In this document: piece by piece, positions 9,034 through 25,900 of the stretch
Position numbering within the stretch: position 1 is the first letter of the stretch
Layout of the letters: each line of letters opens with the position of its first letter
From: a virus
Length of the DNA: 37,873 nt
Reading direction: 5' to 3' (one strand)
IMG/VR virus record: IMGVR_UViG_3300025759_000253
Span: 1-37,873 of that record
Position numbers and translations under genes: made by a program
Notes under the pieces: model-generated
Told to the model about the DNA's origin: nothing
The model's database searches: none
Seen by the model: only the letters and a program-made list of their open reading frames with translations

Positions 9034-9306
9034 ATGAAAGATTCACCATTCCGTATTATACCTGTTGGCCTAGACAAATGGGCTGTAGAAGAAAAAAGGA
9101 CTGGATCCAACAATTACGAAGTGATCCAGTCCGATTTTGAAGCGGAAGGTCAAGCTGAAGAATTCATTGACAAGAAGATTGCGACTCGCAAAAAGATTAC
9201 GAAGCGAGCTGAAAAGTTCCCACCTCGTATTTATCCCAATCCTCGTGCCAATTTGAAAGTAGTTTCCTCACAAGAATTACCATCCTCATCAAATTCTAAA
9301 GGGTAA
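9034..9306 (+). CDS. Small hypothetical protein
   Basis: 90 residues. The ATG at 9034 follows AAAGGAACACGAC, a good ribosome binding site. The longer in-frame extension upstream has no such site. The N-terminal half has a strand-helix pattern (FRIIPVGLDKWAVEEK, then EAEGQAEEFIDKK), followed by a basic segment and a Pro/Ser-rich tail. This resembles small double-stranded-RNA-binding-like or ssrA-like folds only loosely, and no family is recognised. It stands alone on the plus strand between leftward genes and overlaps the metallophosphoesterase 3' end by 11 bp in convergent orientation. Confidence 0.6.
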   Translation: MKDSPFRIIPVGLDKWAVEEKRTGSNNYEVIQSDFEAEGQAEEFIDKKIATRKKITKRAEKFPPRIYPNPRANLKVVSSQELPSSSNSKG

Positions 9307-10540
9307 TTCTTGCTCTACCAACCTCACCAAACTCCTTGTCATACTCAATAGATGATAATGATCTACCAGCTAAATAACCATGCTGGTGGTGATAAGCATC
9401 TTGTGTGACGGGAGCTTGGTGGCTTTCGGTAATTGCACCACCACCCTCAAACACTCTCTGCGTTTTATGATGTACGTGGAAGCCGTGTGCGTAAGCATGT
9501 TTGGTTCTACCCCAAATCTCACGCCAACGAGAAGCCATAATCTCTGGCATCTTGTCCAACTTAGCCGCATGACCATGCGTTGCTGCCAACATCACTTTCC
9601 CAAATTCCCAATGCCAGAACAGAGATGGATCAGTGTCAATTGTTACACGTTTCTCATCACGATACCAAGCATGTAGAAACCATGTCATTGCAATAGCACT
9701 GTGTTCATCATGGTTCCCAGGTAAAATACGAACTGTAACATGTTTGTGTTTCTGTAGAGCAAGTTCAGTCTGGAATGTCAGAAGCTCACCTGCTTTACCA
9801 AGAACCTTTGCATAACGTGTATCAACGTCCAGCGTGTTACCTGATTTCAATGTACGGTTCTCAGAGTTATCTGCATGAAGCAAATCACCACCACCAAGGA
9901 TAACCGCTGTCTCAGTAGCATTACTTGCATGATGTACCCGTTGCATAGCTGTCTGATAAGCATCCATTGCAATAGGAATATCCCAATCAGTACCAGTCTC
10001 CTGACCCCATGCAAACAAACCAAGGTGCATATCGGGTAGAGGGTAAAACGTCATACGATCTGTAATGAGATTTTTTGGTTTTGGGAGTTCAAATTTAGGT
10101 CGTTTATAATCATTGAATTCTTCTTTAAGACCATCAATGAATATTTGAGCACCTTGTTTTTCAAGATCTGTCTTGTACCAAGCCTGAACAGTATCACCGT
10201 TTCCATCGACTTGTGTGGTCATTGCTTTGAGATGATGTTTCTCTGGGAGTTGGAATTGACCTTCCCGTGATTTTGATACCTTTACGCTTTTACCTTTTAC
10301 GTCACCGTCTGCATCGTACTGGGTACTTTCACCTGTGATCTCCATACCCGTGGGAACTGTGAGATTTGGAAAGCGTTTATCAAAATTCCTTGCGAATGCT
10401 TTTGCGAGATGTCGTCGATATGTTCCATGTTTGATACCGAGTTCTCGTGAAGCTGCTGAAGCGTTCTTATTGTTACGGTTGTAAGCAGCTAATGCGTCCA
10501 GACACTTTTGGTCTGTAATCGAATTTGTTTGTGAAGTCAT
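9296..10540 (-). CDS. Metallophosphoesterase with N-terminal HTH-like segment
   Basis: 414 residues from the ATG at 10540, which has AAGGA upstream. The longer frame to 10639 lacks a ribosome site. Residues about 10-50 look like a helix-turn-helix (ASAASRELGIKHGTYRRHL). From 165 all metallophosphatase motifs appear in order: DMH at 170-172, GGD at 217-219, GNHD at 275-278, HGH at 322-324, and a GFHVHH segment at 353-358. This is the two-metal calcineurin/Mre11-like active site, so it should be a phosphodiesterase or nuclease. The HTH suggests binding to DNA. It lies between the late and early blocks on the minus strand. The substrate is unknown. Confidence 0.8.
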   Translation of the reverse strand: MTSQTNSITDQKCLDALAAYNRNNKNASAASRELGIKHGTYRRHLAKAFARNFDKRFPNLTVPTGMEITGESTQYDADGDVKGKSVKVSKSREGQFQLPEKHHLKAMTTQVDGNGDTVQAWYKTDLEKQGAQIFIDGLKEEFNDYKRPKFELPKPKNLITDRMTFYPLPDMHLGLFAWGQETGTDWDIPIAMDAYQTAMQRVHHASNATETAVILGGGDLLHADNSENRTLKSGNTLDVDTRYAKVLGKAGELLTFQTELALQKHKHVTVRILPGNHDEHSAIAMTWFLHAWYRDEKRVTIDTDPSLFWHWEFGKVMLAATHGHAAKLDKMPEIMASRWREIWGRTKHAYAHGFHVHHKTQRVFEGGGAITESHQAPVTQDAYHHQHGYLAGRSLSSIEYDKEFGEVGRARITL

Positions 10541-10692
10541 ATGGTAGTTCCTTATCTTTTTGCAGGATCTGCATAGCACCGCAGTTGATACATGACTAGA
10601 ACATTTTTCCTCAAATGGGAACCAAAAGAGAAAAATCATTTCGTCATACAGCCCAAAACAGGAATAATATTTTTATCTGCATTTTCTGGGGC

Positions 10693-10790: not shown

Positions 10791-10866
10791 CTCACCAATC
10801 CTCTCGAACACCTTTTATTCACCGAATAAAACTGCTTCTCACCGCCAAACCCGATTCCACATAAAA

Positions 10867-10875
10867 GGCTCCGCC
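10867..10875 (+). promoter_or_regulatory. GCTCCGC heptamer with short stem
   Basis: GGC-TCC-GCC carries the same GCTCCGC core as the hairpins at 12798 and 14586 but with only three base pairs. It sits 46 nt before the start codon at 10921. It could be a degenerate or weak copy. Confidence 0.25.
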
Positions 10876-10920
10876 AAGCCCACCCTTTCTTTTATCTGTT
10901 AATTGTTATAAGACGTGCCT

Positions 10921-11090: not shown

Positions 11091-11215
11091 GATAATTAAA
11101 CAAACTCGTCGTCTCAGTTCTCCATCCTAAATCTTGTGCTCCCACCCTCGGCTACGCCGAAGGTCGCACAGAGATTTACGCTGTCGTTCTGCGACTCCTC
11201 ATTTGTTTAATTATC
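11091..11215. repeat. 14-bp perfect inverted repeat enclosing hairpin 2
   Basis: GATAATTAAACAAA (11091-11104) and its exact complement TTTGTTTAATTATC (11202-11215) flank 97 bp. That interval holds hairpin promoter candidate 2. The right arm ends 13 nt before the start codon at 11229, so it lies in the leader of the early operon. Confidence 0.7.
11144..11164 (+). promoter_or_regulatory. Early hairpin promoter candidate 2 (virion RNAP type)
   Basis: TCGGC-TAC-GCCGA (11148-11160) has a 5-bp stem and a 3-nt loop. The stem extends by three more pairs beyond one mismatch (ACC at 11144 with GGT at 11162). It lies about 65 nt upstream of the 11229 operon. Confidence 0.5.
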
Positions 11216-11228
11216 TTAGGAGAAAACA

Positions 11229-11420
11229 ATGAATAAGAAAAAGAATGCTATTAAAAATAAAATTAAAAAGGAGTTTCCAGAAGCTTATGTAAGCTCTAAT
11301 TATAAATTAGGTTTTGCTGTAATTGTTATAAGAAATAATTTTTATCATTATTCATATGATCATGATATAAATGAATTTATAAAGAATATCAAAATGGATA
11401 TCTTATTGGGTGCAACATGA
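11229..11420 (+). CDS. Early LLG-family small protein 1
   Basis: 63 residues, very basic at the N-terminus (MNKKKNAIKNKIKKEF), then a beta-like core (LGFAVIVIRNNFYHYSY) and a C-terminal helix ending MDILLGAT. The start has AGGAG upstream. It is first in a chain of five overlapping or close small genes whose products all carry a helix ending in an acidic residue, a hydrophobic segment and LLG or LMG. Its stop overlaps the next start as ATGA. No known family is recognised. Confidence 0.75.
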   Translation: MNKKKNAIKNKIKKEFPEAYVSSNYKLGFAVIVIRNNFYHYSYDHDINEFIKNIKMDILLGAT

Positions 11421-11683
11421 CAGATAATTATGTTGAACACTCTTATAACTTAAACCGACGAGTTATTGAGTATTATATAAATAAGGATCCTAATCTCTCT
11501 CATATTTACACTTGTAAACTAAGAGAACCTAAATCAATGAACTTCTATATTATGGATATTTATATCACTAGACAACACAAAATAGAGATTATTCATCCTG
11601 AATCATATAGTTTTGAGGAATTAATTTCTATAATTGATGAAGAAATCGATATGTGCAAGCTGTTAGGTATTAAAGATGGGTAA
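11417..11683 (+). CDS. Early LLG-family small protein 2
   Basis: 88 residues. It has an N-terminal helix, then strands (MNFYIMDIYITRQHKIEII) and a C-terminal helix with the signature EEIDMCKLLG followed by five residues. The layout matches its neighbours: helix, beta-hairpin core, then terminal helix with LLG. It overlaps the upstream gene by 4 nt and the downstream gene by 8 nt, so the set is translationally coupled. Function is unknown. Confidence 0.75.
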   Translation: MTDNYVEHSYNLNRRVIEYYINKDPNLSHIYTCKLREPKSMNFYIMDIYITRQHKIEIIHPESYSFEELISIIDEEIDMCKLLGIKDG

Positions 11684-11975
11684 TAATCTATACAAAGAAA
11701 GTCTTGTTACCGAATCTATCATGCATGGTCTTGAAGAAATAGGCCAAGGGGTTCAGGATATGTACCTAAGAGATGATTCTAAGCTCATGGTACTTATAGA
11801 TAGAGAAAACATCTCTGTTTTTCATTGGTTTGGTTCCAGGAAAGATGTTTTCAACAAAATTCTTGATGAAATTAATACCCATAGGCTCCTTGGATCGATT
11901 CAACCTCCCTCAAATGAAGCTCCAAAAGGTTGGGAATGGACAGATTACAAGGAAATAGTCGATGACCCATTATAA
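11676..11975 (+). CDS. Early LLG-family small protein 3
   Basis: 99 residues. N-terminal helix (about 8-26), beta core (KLMVLIDRENISVFHWF), then the helix DEINTHRLLG at about 69-78. Unlike copies 1 and 2 it continues for 20 residues with a Trp/Pro-rich acidic tail (GWEWTDYKEIVDDPL). Both ends overlap neighbours. The conserved LLG therefore lies inside the protein and not only at the stop, which argues for a true shared fold. Confidence 0.75.
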   Translation: MGNNLYKESLVTESIMHGLEEIGQGVQDMYLRDDSKLMVLIDRENISVFHWFGSRKDVFNKILDEINTHRLLGSIQPPSNEAPKGWEWTDYKEIVDDPL

Positions 11976-12315
11976 AACAAACTCAGTTTATAAAAATATA
12001 CATACTATTACATATCCTCAGTTTAGATTTTCTGGTTCAAGACACCAAGATCATGCTTATACAGATCGTTTAATGAAAATTATTAATACAAAAAACGTAT
12101 CTTTATACGATATAGAATTAATTTCCTCAGATTTGATAATTGTATATTTTACCCCAGACCATGAATTTCAAATTAAAGGCTTCCAAGGTGAGGAAATCAA
12201 AAAGGTTGCGTCCTTTATCATTGAAGAATTAGAAACATTAGTTCTTCTTGGTGTTATTGAACACCTTAAATATTTTCAAATACCTGATCTAAAATCAGGT
12301 ATTATGAAGAAATAA
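11962..12315 (+). CDS. Early LLG-family small protein 4
   Basis: 117 residues, the longest member. It has a polar N-terminus, strands (LISSDLIIVYFTPDHEFQIKG broken by a turn), and a helix IIEELETLVLLG at about 85-96. A C-terminal extension of about 20 residues ends in KK. It overlaps the upstream gene by 14 nt. Codon use is very AT-rich, like its neighbours. Function is unknown. Confidence 0.75.
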   Translation: MTHYKTNSVYKNIHTITYPQFRFSGSRHQDHAYTDRLMKIINTKNVSLYDIELISSDLIIVYFTPDHEFQIKGFQGEEIKKVASFIIEELETLVLLGVIEHLKYFQIPDLKSGIMKK

Positions 12316-12346
12316 ATCGAGTTAAATATATTAATAGGAGGTTAAT

Positions 12347-12619
12347 ATGAAAGAAAATCACAAACCTATTCAACAATACCGTTTTGCAAAAAATATTATA
12401 AACTCCCTCTTAAAAGAGGGTTACTTTATCTGGCACGTAATCGTTAATATTAATGAATTCCCTCCTTATACAAAACATGTAACTGTAAAAATGGATGAAG
12501 ATACCTTTATTAAGGTTTATGCTGCTACAGACCAAATTACAGTCTTTACACGTATGATCAAAGATGAAATTGATATCTTAAGGTTAATGGGTTTTGAAGA
12601 TAAACCTGAACCATTTTAA
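12347..12619 (+). CDS. Early LLG-family small protein 5
   Basis: 90 residues with N-terminal helix (YRFAKNIINSLLKEGY), beta segments (WHVIVNIN, HVTVKM, IKVYAATDQITVF) and C-terminal helix DEIDILRLMG followed by FEDKPEPF. The strong site AATAGGAGG precedes the ATG. This copy gives the clearest helix-strand-strand-strand-helix layout of the family, compatible with a small alpha/beta sandwich. It ends the first early gene chain. Confidence 0.8.
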   Translation: MKENHKPIQQYRFAKNIINSLLKEGYFIWHVIVNINEFPPYTKHVTVKMDEDTFIKVYAATDQITVFTRMIKDEIDILRLMGFEDKPEPF

Positions 12620-12797: not shown

Positions 12798-12810
12798 GGT
12801 GCTCCGCACC
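12798..12810 (+). promoter_or_regulatory. Early hairpin promoter candidate 3 (virion RNAP type)
   Basis: GGTGC-TCC-GCACC forms a 5-bp stem with a 3-nt loop around the core GCTCCGC. It sits 35 nt upstream of the ATG at 12846 in a 226-bp non-coding gap and shares its core exactly with the hairpin at 14586. Confidence 0.55.
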
Positions 12811-12845
12811 TGTTGAGTTCAACCAGCTAATCAGGAGCTATCATC

Positions 12846-13190
12846 ATGGCATCAGCAATCAACTCAGCTCGTAATGCGAGCGTATCTATCTTCGACTTGG
12901 TTAACAAGTCAGCATCAACCATCACAGACACAGTAGACTCAATCCAAAAAGCAGGTGACATCCTGCACAATAAGGTACGTGTACTACATGCAGCACAGAC
13001 ACAGAATACAGATCAAAAGATCTTAGCTGCTAAAGAACGTGATCTCATGACTATGGTCAAAGAACATACTACCTTCATGGTAGAGCTTCAGTCAGACATC
13101 GACAAAGACTCTGACTATAAGAAAGTGTTCGATGAAAATATGAAGAGATTCACTACAACTGTCTCTGAACCTTCAACTTCTGAGGCTTAA
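12846..13190 (+). CDS. Helical early protein
   Basis: 114 residues, nearly all helical, with low-complexity Ser/Thr-rich N-terminal part (ASVSIFDLVNKSASTITDTV) and a charged second half (AAKERDLMTMVKEH). There is no membrane segment. AGGAG precedes the start. It is the only gene between hairpin 3 and the large stem-loop at 13212, so it may form its own transcription unit and be strongly made. The family is not recognised. Confidence 0.7.
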   Translation: MASAINSARNASVSIFDLVNKSASTITDTVDSIQKAGDILHNKVRVLHAAQTQNTDQKILAAKERDLMTMVKEHTTFMVELQSDIDKDSDYKKVFDENMKRFTTTVSEPSTSEA

Positions 13191-14585: not shown

Positions 14586-14600
14586 ACACGCTCCGCGTGT
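14586..14600 (+). promoter_or_regulatory. Early hairpin promoter candidate 4 (virion RNAP type)
   Basis: ACACGC-TCC-GCGTGT has a 6-bp stem, extendable by G-T and A-T pairs, with a 3-nt loop and the core GCTCCGC. It lies in a 176-bp gap, 79 nt upstream of the ATG at 14680. Confidence 0.55.
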
Positions 14601-14679
14601 TTTGGTGCTCTGTGGGAATGACCTCATTGAGCATTAATCAACAAAACCAACTACTTACATGATAAAAGGAAAAACAATC

Positions 14680-15156: not shown

Positions 15157-15259
15157 TTAAAAACGATAGTTGATAGTTATTTAACTAACCTAAATGCTAA
15201 ATCCCAAAAAGATGACCTTATCGACTAAAGGTCACCTAAAGGATATAAGAGAGGCTAAA

Positions 15260-15475
15260 ATGGCAGAAACTCCAATAGAAAAACGTCTTAAAATACGTTG
15301 TAAAACGTGTAAATCAGAGGACGTTTTCCGTGATGCTTGGTCTTCATGGGATGTCGAAAAACAAGAGTGGGTACTCGAACATGTGTACGATGATGCCTAC
15401 TGCAACATGTGTGAAGGTGAGGTAAAACTCGAAGAGATTACCATGATGGATGTCCTCTTAGGAGCTGACTCATGA
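15260..15475 (+). CDS. Zinc-ribbon small protein with C-terminal LLG signature
   Basis: 71 residues from ATG 15260 (GAGAGG upstream). An in-frame ATG at 15194 would add 22 residues but lies before a small hairpin. CKTC at about 14-17 and CNMC at about 50-53 form a probable zinc ribbon. The C-terminus reads EEITMMDVLLGADS, like the early LLG family. The codons for LLG include TTAGGAG, which is also the ribosome site of the next gene. It overlaps that gene by 4 nt. Confidence 0.7.
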   Translation: MAETPIEKRLKIRCKTCKSEDVFRDAWSSWDVEKQEWVLEHVYDDAYCNMCEGEVKLEEITMMDVLLGADS

Positions 15476-15690
15476 GTAAAGGATCCTTCACCAAAATCAA
15501 ATTACAGTCTGAATATATTGATGCAGACTACATCAGTATTGGTCTTTCCAAAGAGACTGGTAATCCATTCATTCAATCAAACAGTGGTCATCAGAACACT
15601 ACTATCATTCACCCTTCATATGAAGAGCTTCAAGAGATTGCTACAGCAATAGAAAAGCTTCTTATGGACAGACTCTTAGGAGAAACATGA
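15472..15690 (+). CDS. Small beta-rich protein with C-terminal LLG signature
   Basis: 72 residues: beta strands in the first two thirds (FTKIKLQSEYIDADYISIGLS broken by a turn, then TTIIHP) and a helix EELQEIATAIEKLLMDRLLGET at the end. The terminal MDRLLG matches the MDILLG and MDVLLG ends of related small genes. The LLG codons again supply TTAGGAG for the next start. Both ends overlap neighbours (ATGA type). The order strand, strand, helix-LLG matches the early family. Confidence 0.7.
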   Translation: MSKGSFTKIKLQSEYIDADYISIGLSKETGNPFIQSNSGHQNTTIIHPSYEELQEIATAIEKLLMDRLLGET

Positions 15691-19535: not shown

Positions 19536-20351
19536 ATGAAAGCGGATTATCAAACCCAGGTAGAGTTCGAAGAACTGTACAACAAGAACCAGTTGATGGA
19601 TCGTCTTAGACGTGAATTCAATATCCCTGATGTTATCGCTCAATGTGATAAACATGAGATCCCTCTGAAGTTCGGTGTGGATCTATTGGTACATATGGTC
19701 ATTCACAAGCGTGCTACTGTTTCAGTGCTCGTAGGCCAGATGTATAAGATGTTCAAGGACGAATCTAATCCTCTTCAAGCCTGTGCTGATATGCTTCTTA
19801 AAGCAGCTCAAGCAGACTTTATGGATTGGAGTCCTTTGGATGAAGTATTTATCCTTCGGATAGATGTATCATCTGATGTTTATGAAGAGTTGGAACGTTA
19901 TCAGTATCCTTTACCAATGCTGATTGAACCCAACGAAATCAAAGACAACAAACAGTCAGGTTATTACACCTTACAATCATCTATGCTGTTAAAGAACAGT
20001 CATCATGATGATGATATCTGTTTGGATCACATCAACAGGGTTAACCTAACAAGGTTCCGCCTTAATAATGAAGTCGTTAACATGATTTCAAATTCATGGC
20101 GTAGCCTAGACAAACAGAAACCTGGGGAATACATCCAGGATTTCAAACGACGGGTAAAAGCATTTGAGAAGTACGATAGATCTTGCAAAGATATTTTCGA
20201 TCATCTCAACATGTGGGGTAATGAATTCTACCTCACCCATAAGTACGATAAACGTGGTCGTTGCTACTCTCAAGGATACCATGTGAACCCGCAAGGAAAC
20301 GCATGGAACAAAGCGTCTATCGAGTTCGCTCATCAAGAGCTAATTCAATGA
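19536..20351 (+). CDS. RNA polymerase subunit 1 (N4 gp15-like, N-terminal half of T7-type RNAP)
   Basis: 271 residues, nearly the length I know for N4 gp15. The C-terminal end KYDKRGRCYSQGYHVNPQGN corresponds to the T7 RNAP palm-entry segment DWRGRVYA...NPQGND, and the polypeptide then stops. The upstream YPLPMLIEPNEI and NRVNLTRFRLN resemble the preceding T7-family region. With the 20574 product it would form the heterodimeric RNAP II that transcribes middle genes in N4. The catalytic Asp residues are in the partner. Its stop overlaps the small gene that follows as ATGA, so the split is genuine and not a simple frameshift. Confidence 0.88.
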   Translation: MKADYQTQVEFEELYNKNQLMDRLRREFNIPDVIAQCDKHEIPLKFGVDLLVHMVIHKRATVSVLVGQMYKMFKDESNPLQACADMLLKAAQADFMDWSPLDEVFILRIDVSSDVYEELERYQYPLPMLIEPNEIKDNKQSGYYTLQSSMLLKNSHHDDDICLDHINRVNLTRFRLNNEVVNMISNSWRSLDKQKPGEYIQDFKRRVKAFEKYDRSCKDIFDHLNMWGNEFYLTHKYDKRGRCYSQGYHVNPQGNAWNKASIEFAHQELIQ

Positions 20352-20554
20352 GTTTTTACCGTTTTTCTAACGGTGTGTTTATTGAGGCTACTTCTTATGA
20401 AGAGGCTCAAAACAAACTCATTGATCAAATTAAAAATGAAAAAGAAGATCCCAAGCGATGGTATAAATGCACTTGCGTGGGGTTATCCCATCGATTTGGT
20501 TGTTACTGGATGAACAGAGATCCAGAAACAGGTGAAATTGAGATCCCCTTTTAA
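20348..20554 (+). CDS. Small protein encoded between the two RNAP genes
   Basis: 68 residues. It overlaps the RNAP subunit 1 stop by 4 nt and ends 19 nt before RNAP subunit 2. It is mixed: a strand [11 protein letters not shown], a helix [17 protein letters not shown], then [16 protein letters not shown] with three cysteines and a His that could bind metal. It shows no similarity to RNA polymerase, so it is an inserted gene and not a polymerase fragment. Coupled translation with both subunits suggests it could be a polymerase-associated factor or only a passenger. Confidence 0.65.
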
Positions 20555-23280: not shown

Positions 23281-23613
23281 ATGAAACCCCATCCACCAAT
23301 TGAACTACCAGTTGATCGTAGATCAGACATCATAGGCAAGCTAATGTCTAACGTGCAAATTGATCGTGAGACAGGTTGCTGGAACTGGAAAGGTGGTACA
23401 TCTGGTAACGGTAGAGGTGGTGGATACGGTAGGATGTCGTTATCTGGTCAAACAGTTGCTACTCACATCGTATCATACACTCACTTCTACGGATATGTTC
23501 CAGGTAAGAAGCAAATTGATCACCTGTGTAAAAATAGACTCTGTTGTAATCCAGCTCATTTGGAGATGGTTACACATAAACAGAACCAAAGAAGACGGAG
23601 AAAAAAGTCATGA
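23281..23613 (+). CDS. Free-standing HNH homing endonuclease
   Basis: 110 residues with AAAGGAG upstream. The core IDHLCKNRLCCNPAHLEMV (79-97) gives His81, Asn90 and His93 of the HNH fold, with cysteines 83, 88 and 89. GCWNWKGG near 32-39 is the typical preceding strand. The C-terminus is a basic tail (RRRRKK). Such proteins cut DNA and spread as selfish genes in phages. It is not inside another gene and no intron borders are evident. Its stop overlaps the next start (ATGA). Confidence 0.85.
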   Translation: MKPHPPIELPVDRRSDIIGKLMSNVQIDRETGCWNWKGGTSGNGRGGGYGRMSLSGQTVATHIVSYTHFYGYVPGKKQIDHLCKNRLCCNPAHLEMVTHKQNQRRRRKKS

Positions 23614-25675: not shown

Positions 25676-25900
25676 ATGTCCCTATTGAAGAAAAAAGTCC
25701 CTACAGTTGCAGAAGCACTATCAGGGCTTACTAAGATTGCTCAAGACCTTGATAATGCACGTATTGCTGCTGAAGATGGTGTTGCAGAGCAAGAAGAAGT
25801 AATCAAAGCTGCAAAAGAATCTCGTGATGCTTTCAAAACAGAAGCTGATCAAGCTGTTGCAGTTGGTGCAAATATTCAAAAATTGCTTGGTAACGTATAG
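25676..25900 (+). CDS. Small coiled-coil protein
   Basis: 74 residues, almost completely helical with heptad-like spacing (LTKIAQDLDNARIAAEDGVAEQEEVI split by charged residues). AAAGGAAAA precedes the start. The C-terminus IQKLLGNV resembles the LLG ends only by chance. Probably a dimer or trimer. It is the last rightward gene before the reversed tail island. Function is unknown. Confidence 0.65.
   Translation: MSLLKKKVPTVAEALSGLTKIAQDLDNARIAAEDGVAEQEEVIKAAKESRDAFKTEADQAVAVGANIQKLLGNV

Follow-up and report, generated by a model that had tools for sequence, protein, structure and literature searches.

The window, by which we mean the whole stretch of DNA analysed (37,873 nucleotides, the full 37.9 kb of the record), derives from an N4-like phage (schitovirus). 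Membership of the genome in the Schitoviridae is indicated by the presence of the heterodimeric N4-type RNA polymerase, RNAP1 at 19536 and RNAP2 at 20532, with matches to PHROG 2166 (E 1.6e-88) and PHROG 2051 (E 6.6e-145). The window amounts to about half of a typical schitovirus genome, and the gene for the giant virion RNA polymerase (vRNAP) would fall outside the record. The phage appears rather isolated, since the closest RNAP2 found in IMG/VR is 61% identical (contig L016), and named relatives reach 50-53%, the best among the matches listed. Late genes (tail fibres, terminase) run leftward, together with a SbcD-like nuclease (9296-10639, minus strand), and the rightward early region begins near 10.9 kb; further genes encode rIIA, rIIB, an ATPase, an HNH endonuclease and a thymidylate synthase. 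The nuclease gene borders the early region, and its counterpart in another contig (L062, 231-1442) likewise lies ahead of the early region; apart from this case, its resemblance is to genes from phages outside the N4 group.

The leftmost part of the early region is occupied by five consecutive small genes, here called p1 to p5 (Table 1). A preliminary description had singled them out, between 11229 and 12619, as a tandem family with a common C-terminal signature: all five are present there, with the lengths and endings it had quoted. Shine-Dalgarno sites of the AAGGA/AGGAG type are found at most genes of this phage, and ribosome-binding sites are recognisable for most of p1-p5. Genes p1 to p4 are tightly ordered and overlap: the stop codon of p1 and the start codon of p2 share the sequence ATGA, and both a weak ribosome-binding site and the beginning of p3 overlap the 3' end of p2. 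No overlap with a downstream gene is found for p5. Two genes further downstream, p6 and p7, carry similar endings and are considered below.

Table 1. Genes of the array, downstream genes with similar endings and candidate promoters in the window
Feature	Position	Strand	Protein	Description
p1	11229-11420	+	63 aa	member; KMDILLG at residues 55-61
p2	11417-11683	+	88 aa	member; motif EEIDMCKLLG
p3	11676-11975	+	99 aa	member; motif DEINTHRLLG, internal, 26 residues from the end
p4	11962-12315	+	117 aa	member; motif EELETLVLLG, internal, 20 residues from the end
p5	12347-12619	+	90 aa	member; motif DEIDILRLMG, 8 residues from the end
p6	15194-15475	+	93 aa	zinc ribbon, excluded from the family; tail MDVLLGADS encoded where p7 has its ribosome-binding site
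p7	15472-15690	+	72 aa	possible sixth member; LLGE codons double as Shine-Dalgarno site for the gene that follows
Weak candidate vRNAP hairpin promoter	10865-10882	+		core at 10868, stem of 3 bp only, no match at +1; ahead of the array
Good vRNAP-type hairpin promoter	12798-12815	+		5 bp stem, GCTCCGC core, match at +1 (top-strand G) at 12815; just after the array
Second good vRNAP-type hairpin promoter	14586-14604	+		6 bp stem, GCTCCGC core, match at +1 (top-strand G) at 14604

Promoters and the slot of the array

The core GCTCCGC occurs three times in the window (10868, 12801 and 14590), always in the rightward direction and within the early region, against 0.6 occurrences expected. On the template strand it provides -11G, -10G and -8G, the bases read by the N4 virion RNA polymerase (PMC4496689). 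The array ends just before the first of the two good promoters and is therefore probably part of the first early unit, its own promoter being uncertain.

Directly ahead of p1 lies a strong 125-nt hairpin (11091-11215; -44 kcal/mol, z -5.9, 14-bp closing arms), for which no match was found in Rfam, and which may act as a regulatory RNA or a terminator, or belong to an early start region. Its tip (11148-11160) was considered as a further vRNAP promoter, and rejected for its wrong loop centre and wrong +1.

Both good promoters have counterparts in the related contig L019 (5455 and 6471). These precede homologues of the genes found at 12846 and 14659 in the window, and the late leftward genes reach almost to the first counterpart, leaving the slot empty. 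In L016 the slot is filled by other small genes, and small ORFs are found there in L017 too. Being absent from the empty slot of the one and replaced in the other (L016), p1-p5 are accessory genes.

The common C-terminal block and the start signals of neighbouring genes

The best 13-residue block common to p1-p5 (FIKNIKMDILLGA, IDEEIDMCKLLGI, ILDEINTHRLLGS, IIEELETLVLLGV and IKDEIDILRLMGF, respectively) is exactly the C-terminal LLG/LMG pattern of the preliminary description, and follows the consensus h-I-x-(D/E)-E-(I/L)-x(4)-L-(L/M)-G, to which p1 is a poorer fit, with N-I where the others have E-I. Its score, 213, compares with 98±13 in shuffled sequences (maximum 146, n=300) and with a maximum of 197 among 826 five-ORF sets from related phages, the top set being itself composed of real paralogues. 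Among annotated schitovirus early proteins, the same score was reached by none of 500 random length-matched sets and by none of 98 consecutive sets. The motif was selected post hoc, and the control sets were equally free to pick their own best block. The similarity of p1-p5 is thus real, and beyond chance as a sequence block. Much of the signal, however, is contributed by LLG itself: once this is masked, 13 of the 500 random and 4 of the 98 consecutive control sets score as high, and the similarity becomes marginal. L(L/M)G within the last 35 residues is found in only one of 123 annotated early proteins of four relatives, versus 8 of the 44 listed ORFs of the window. Pairwise similarity extends past the motif between p2 and p4 (local alignment, p=0.002) and between p3 and p5.

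Part of this resemblance has to be read together with the start signals of the following genes. In p6 and p7 the LLG(A/E) codons read CTC TTA GGA G, which serves at the same time as the site for the gene that follows, with the start of the latter overlapping the stop codon as ATGA; the LG codons thus coincide with a strong Shine-Dalgarno sequence, TTAGGAG. The sequence CTTAGGAGAAA is also present upstream of p1, in non-coding DNA, and a 19-nt DNA repeat is common to the ends of p1, p6 and p7, which fits an account based on ribosome-binding sites. The motif ends of p1 and p2 overlap weaker sites, while those of p3, p4 and p5 are clear of any. These three genes, taken alone, score 79, a value reached by none of 300 shuffles, 4 of 500 random sets and none of 106 consecutive sets. 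The argument that the motif, being internal in three proteins, is not an artefact of gene ends thus holds for p3, p4 and p5, and not for all seven genes, because only in these three is the motif clear of such sites.

Two additional members had been proposed, at 15260 and 15472. The former corresponds to p6 (starting at 15194), and is discarded: its core is a zinc ribbon (phrog_32296), and the MDVLLG tail is lacking in its relatives from Paxi, Piffle, Pokken, X3_15 and ZC03. As the codons of this tail are the ribosome-binding site of p7, the resemblance of p6 to the array stems from the signal that starts p7, not from kinship; this signal was possibly kept through a gene exchange. The case of p7 is less clear-cut: its local alignment with p2 gives p=0.004, yet its LG codons form a strong Shine-Dalgarno site, and on sequence grounds it is a possible member of the family. 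A remote ORF, at 25676, also ends in a similar way (KLLGNV); it is far from the array and seems helical over its whole length, and its ending was judged a coincidence.

Start signals may shape protein ends elsewhere too. The ORF at 23281-23613 closes with a basic run (RRRRKKS) that shares DNA with the ribosome-binding region of the gene that follows (23610). In a phage which is not N4-like, three small proteins in a row (L002, 16193-17201) all terminate in DDLI or NDDLI, possibly because of a shared tail or of a start-signal effect.

Predicted structures and searches for relatives

AlphaFold2 models were evaluated for two of the five members, both of low confidence. p1 (mean pLDDT 66) is predicted to fold as H-E-E-H (H7-15, E19-24, E29-34, H43-59) and p5 (mean pLDDT 67) as H-E-E-E-H (H5-23, E30-32, E42-50, E53-60, H61-80); in both models the motif lies at the end of the final helix, following a helix and a beta-sheet, and within a helix carrying residues of the buried type. 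The expectation that all five proteins share a beta core followed by a helix ending in the motif, equivalently placed, agrees with the low-confidence models of p1 and p5, and the sequences of p2, p3 and p4 appear, by eye, to fit the same order of helices and strands.

L-L-G at the end of a helix is a usual C-cap, and for this reason LLG is read here as a structural feature. Most simply, it is probably a helix C-cap with hydrophobic packing and, as such, it is no functional signature by itself. The LLG signature itself is less special than it first appeared.

The order of helix, three strands and helix in the p5 model is also that of SRP9/14 and of double-stranded RNA-binding domains. Comparison of this low-confidence model with folds of these types gave Z values of 3-4.5, among them the SRP Alu core (1e8o_A: Z 4.5, rmsd 3.2, 65 aligned residues), and comparison with T7 Gp1.2, a dGTPase inhibitor, gave Z 4.7 (7u65_G: rmsd 8.4, 76 aligned residues). 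PH domains score equally high. Since all look-alikes proposed by VIA-align (PH domains, SRP9/14, dsRBD, T7 Gp1.2 and VapD) have Z below 8, they were set aside, and no kinship is claimed. A Foldseek search in BFVD returned no matches at E<=0.001, and the profile search of the PDB gave no sequence match.

Nothing below E 0.7 was obtained by tblastn with p2, p3, p4, p5 and p7 against 50,697 phage records, and no match by pattern scans, which reach close relatives only, with p1-p5 in IMG/VR and with p5 in bacterial genomes. Within the window, the family profile recovers its six training sequences and no seventh; elsewhere, among all ORFs of about 90 loci and 82 related records, profile searches yielded chance matches only (the best, E 0.015, covering 14 residues of a 2103-aa frame). 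Pfam, NCBIfam and PADLOC gave no credible match; a weak match of p4 to PHROG 10333 was dropped, because 4 of 14 unrelated control genomes match it too. Literature searches found no account of such a protein family. In line with the earlier remark that no named family is known to carry this signature, no homologue turned up in named phages, IMG/VR or the 82 related records, and the family has so far been found in this phage only.

The arrangement, as opposed to the sequences, has parallels. In the N4-like Rhizobium phage RHph_Y2_6 and Sinorhizobium phage ort11, the left-end early clusters consist, as in the window, of many small orphan genes in one direction ahead of RNAP1/RNAP2, but they contain neither a homologue of p1-p5 nor a comparable LLG set. 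In the schitovirus contig L081 (2277-3353), three tandem small early paralogues, located just ahead of RNAP1, share a C-terminal block. Their ending, EPTE(K/E)xVxxxxEGxxCL (EPTEKNVxxFLEG), differs from the motif of p1-p5, and sequence kinship to these was not detected; tandem paralogous early genes are a kind that also occurs in this other schitovirus contig.

Origin and possible role of the array

On balance, we lean towards regarding p1-p5 as old tandem paralogues, of predicted helix-sheet-helix fold, in an accessory slot, which most likely inhibit different host or defence proteins. Convergence would mean that unrelated small proteins came to carry a common leucine-leucine-glycine helix cap, partly helped by ribosome-binding sites forcing LG codons. 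This is shown for the zinc ribbon p6; the same codons are found in p7, weaker sites underlie the motif ends of p1 and p2, and little similarity is left when LLG is disregarded. The three members clear of such sites nevertheless match one another, and a motif so rare near the ends of annotated early proteins recurs in five consecutive genes, so that convergence appears somewhat unlikely as an explanation of the whole array.

A docking tail shared by proteins with differing cores, and binding one common machine of the phage or of the host, would agree with the tail being the best conserved part and with its presence on the unrelated p6. The p6 tail, however, is explained by the ribosome-binding site, the motif is internal in p3 and p4, and its helical setting among buried-type residues in the p1 and p5 models is unlike a free tail; we consider this reading highly improbable. 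Equally little weight is given to the five proteins being subunits of a hetero-oligomer, joined via the conserved helix, despite the tight order and the overlaps of p1-p4 and the fact that this helix could be an interface.

According to the favoured reading, that of paralogy, the five genes would be old duplicates of one small protein, predicted to fold as helix, beta-sheet and helix, placed in a slot within the leftmost part of this N4-like phage's early region. We infer that they arose by duplication and are expressed by the virion RNA polymerase, their products being probably among the earliest made following DNA injection. In the C-terminal helix the two leucines would pack against the sheet or against a partner copy, with the glycine terminating the helix; this cap role would explain why the C-terminal part is conserved, while the rest is free to diverge. 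Each copy would most likely bind and inhibit a different host protein or defence system. Since no homologue was found, function is read from context alone: the proteins are probably expressed first, accessory, small and encoded by diverged tandem copies, which points most likely to small host-takeover or counter-defence proteins. The fuller proposal, of at least five paralogous early proteins with a small fold unlike known ones, each with its own host or defence target and with the capped helix as scaffold, we hold to be unlikely.

The downstream genes at 15194 and 15472 call for caution, since, where phage genes are tightly packed, the signal that starts one gene can impose shared C-terminal residues on the protein of the gene before it. 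If p1-p5 are truly paralogues, they would form a compact series of natural variants on a single small phage protein, and could help to identify new targets of host takeover or counter-defence.
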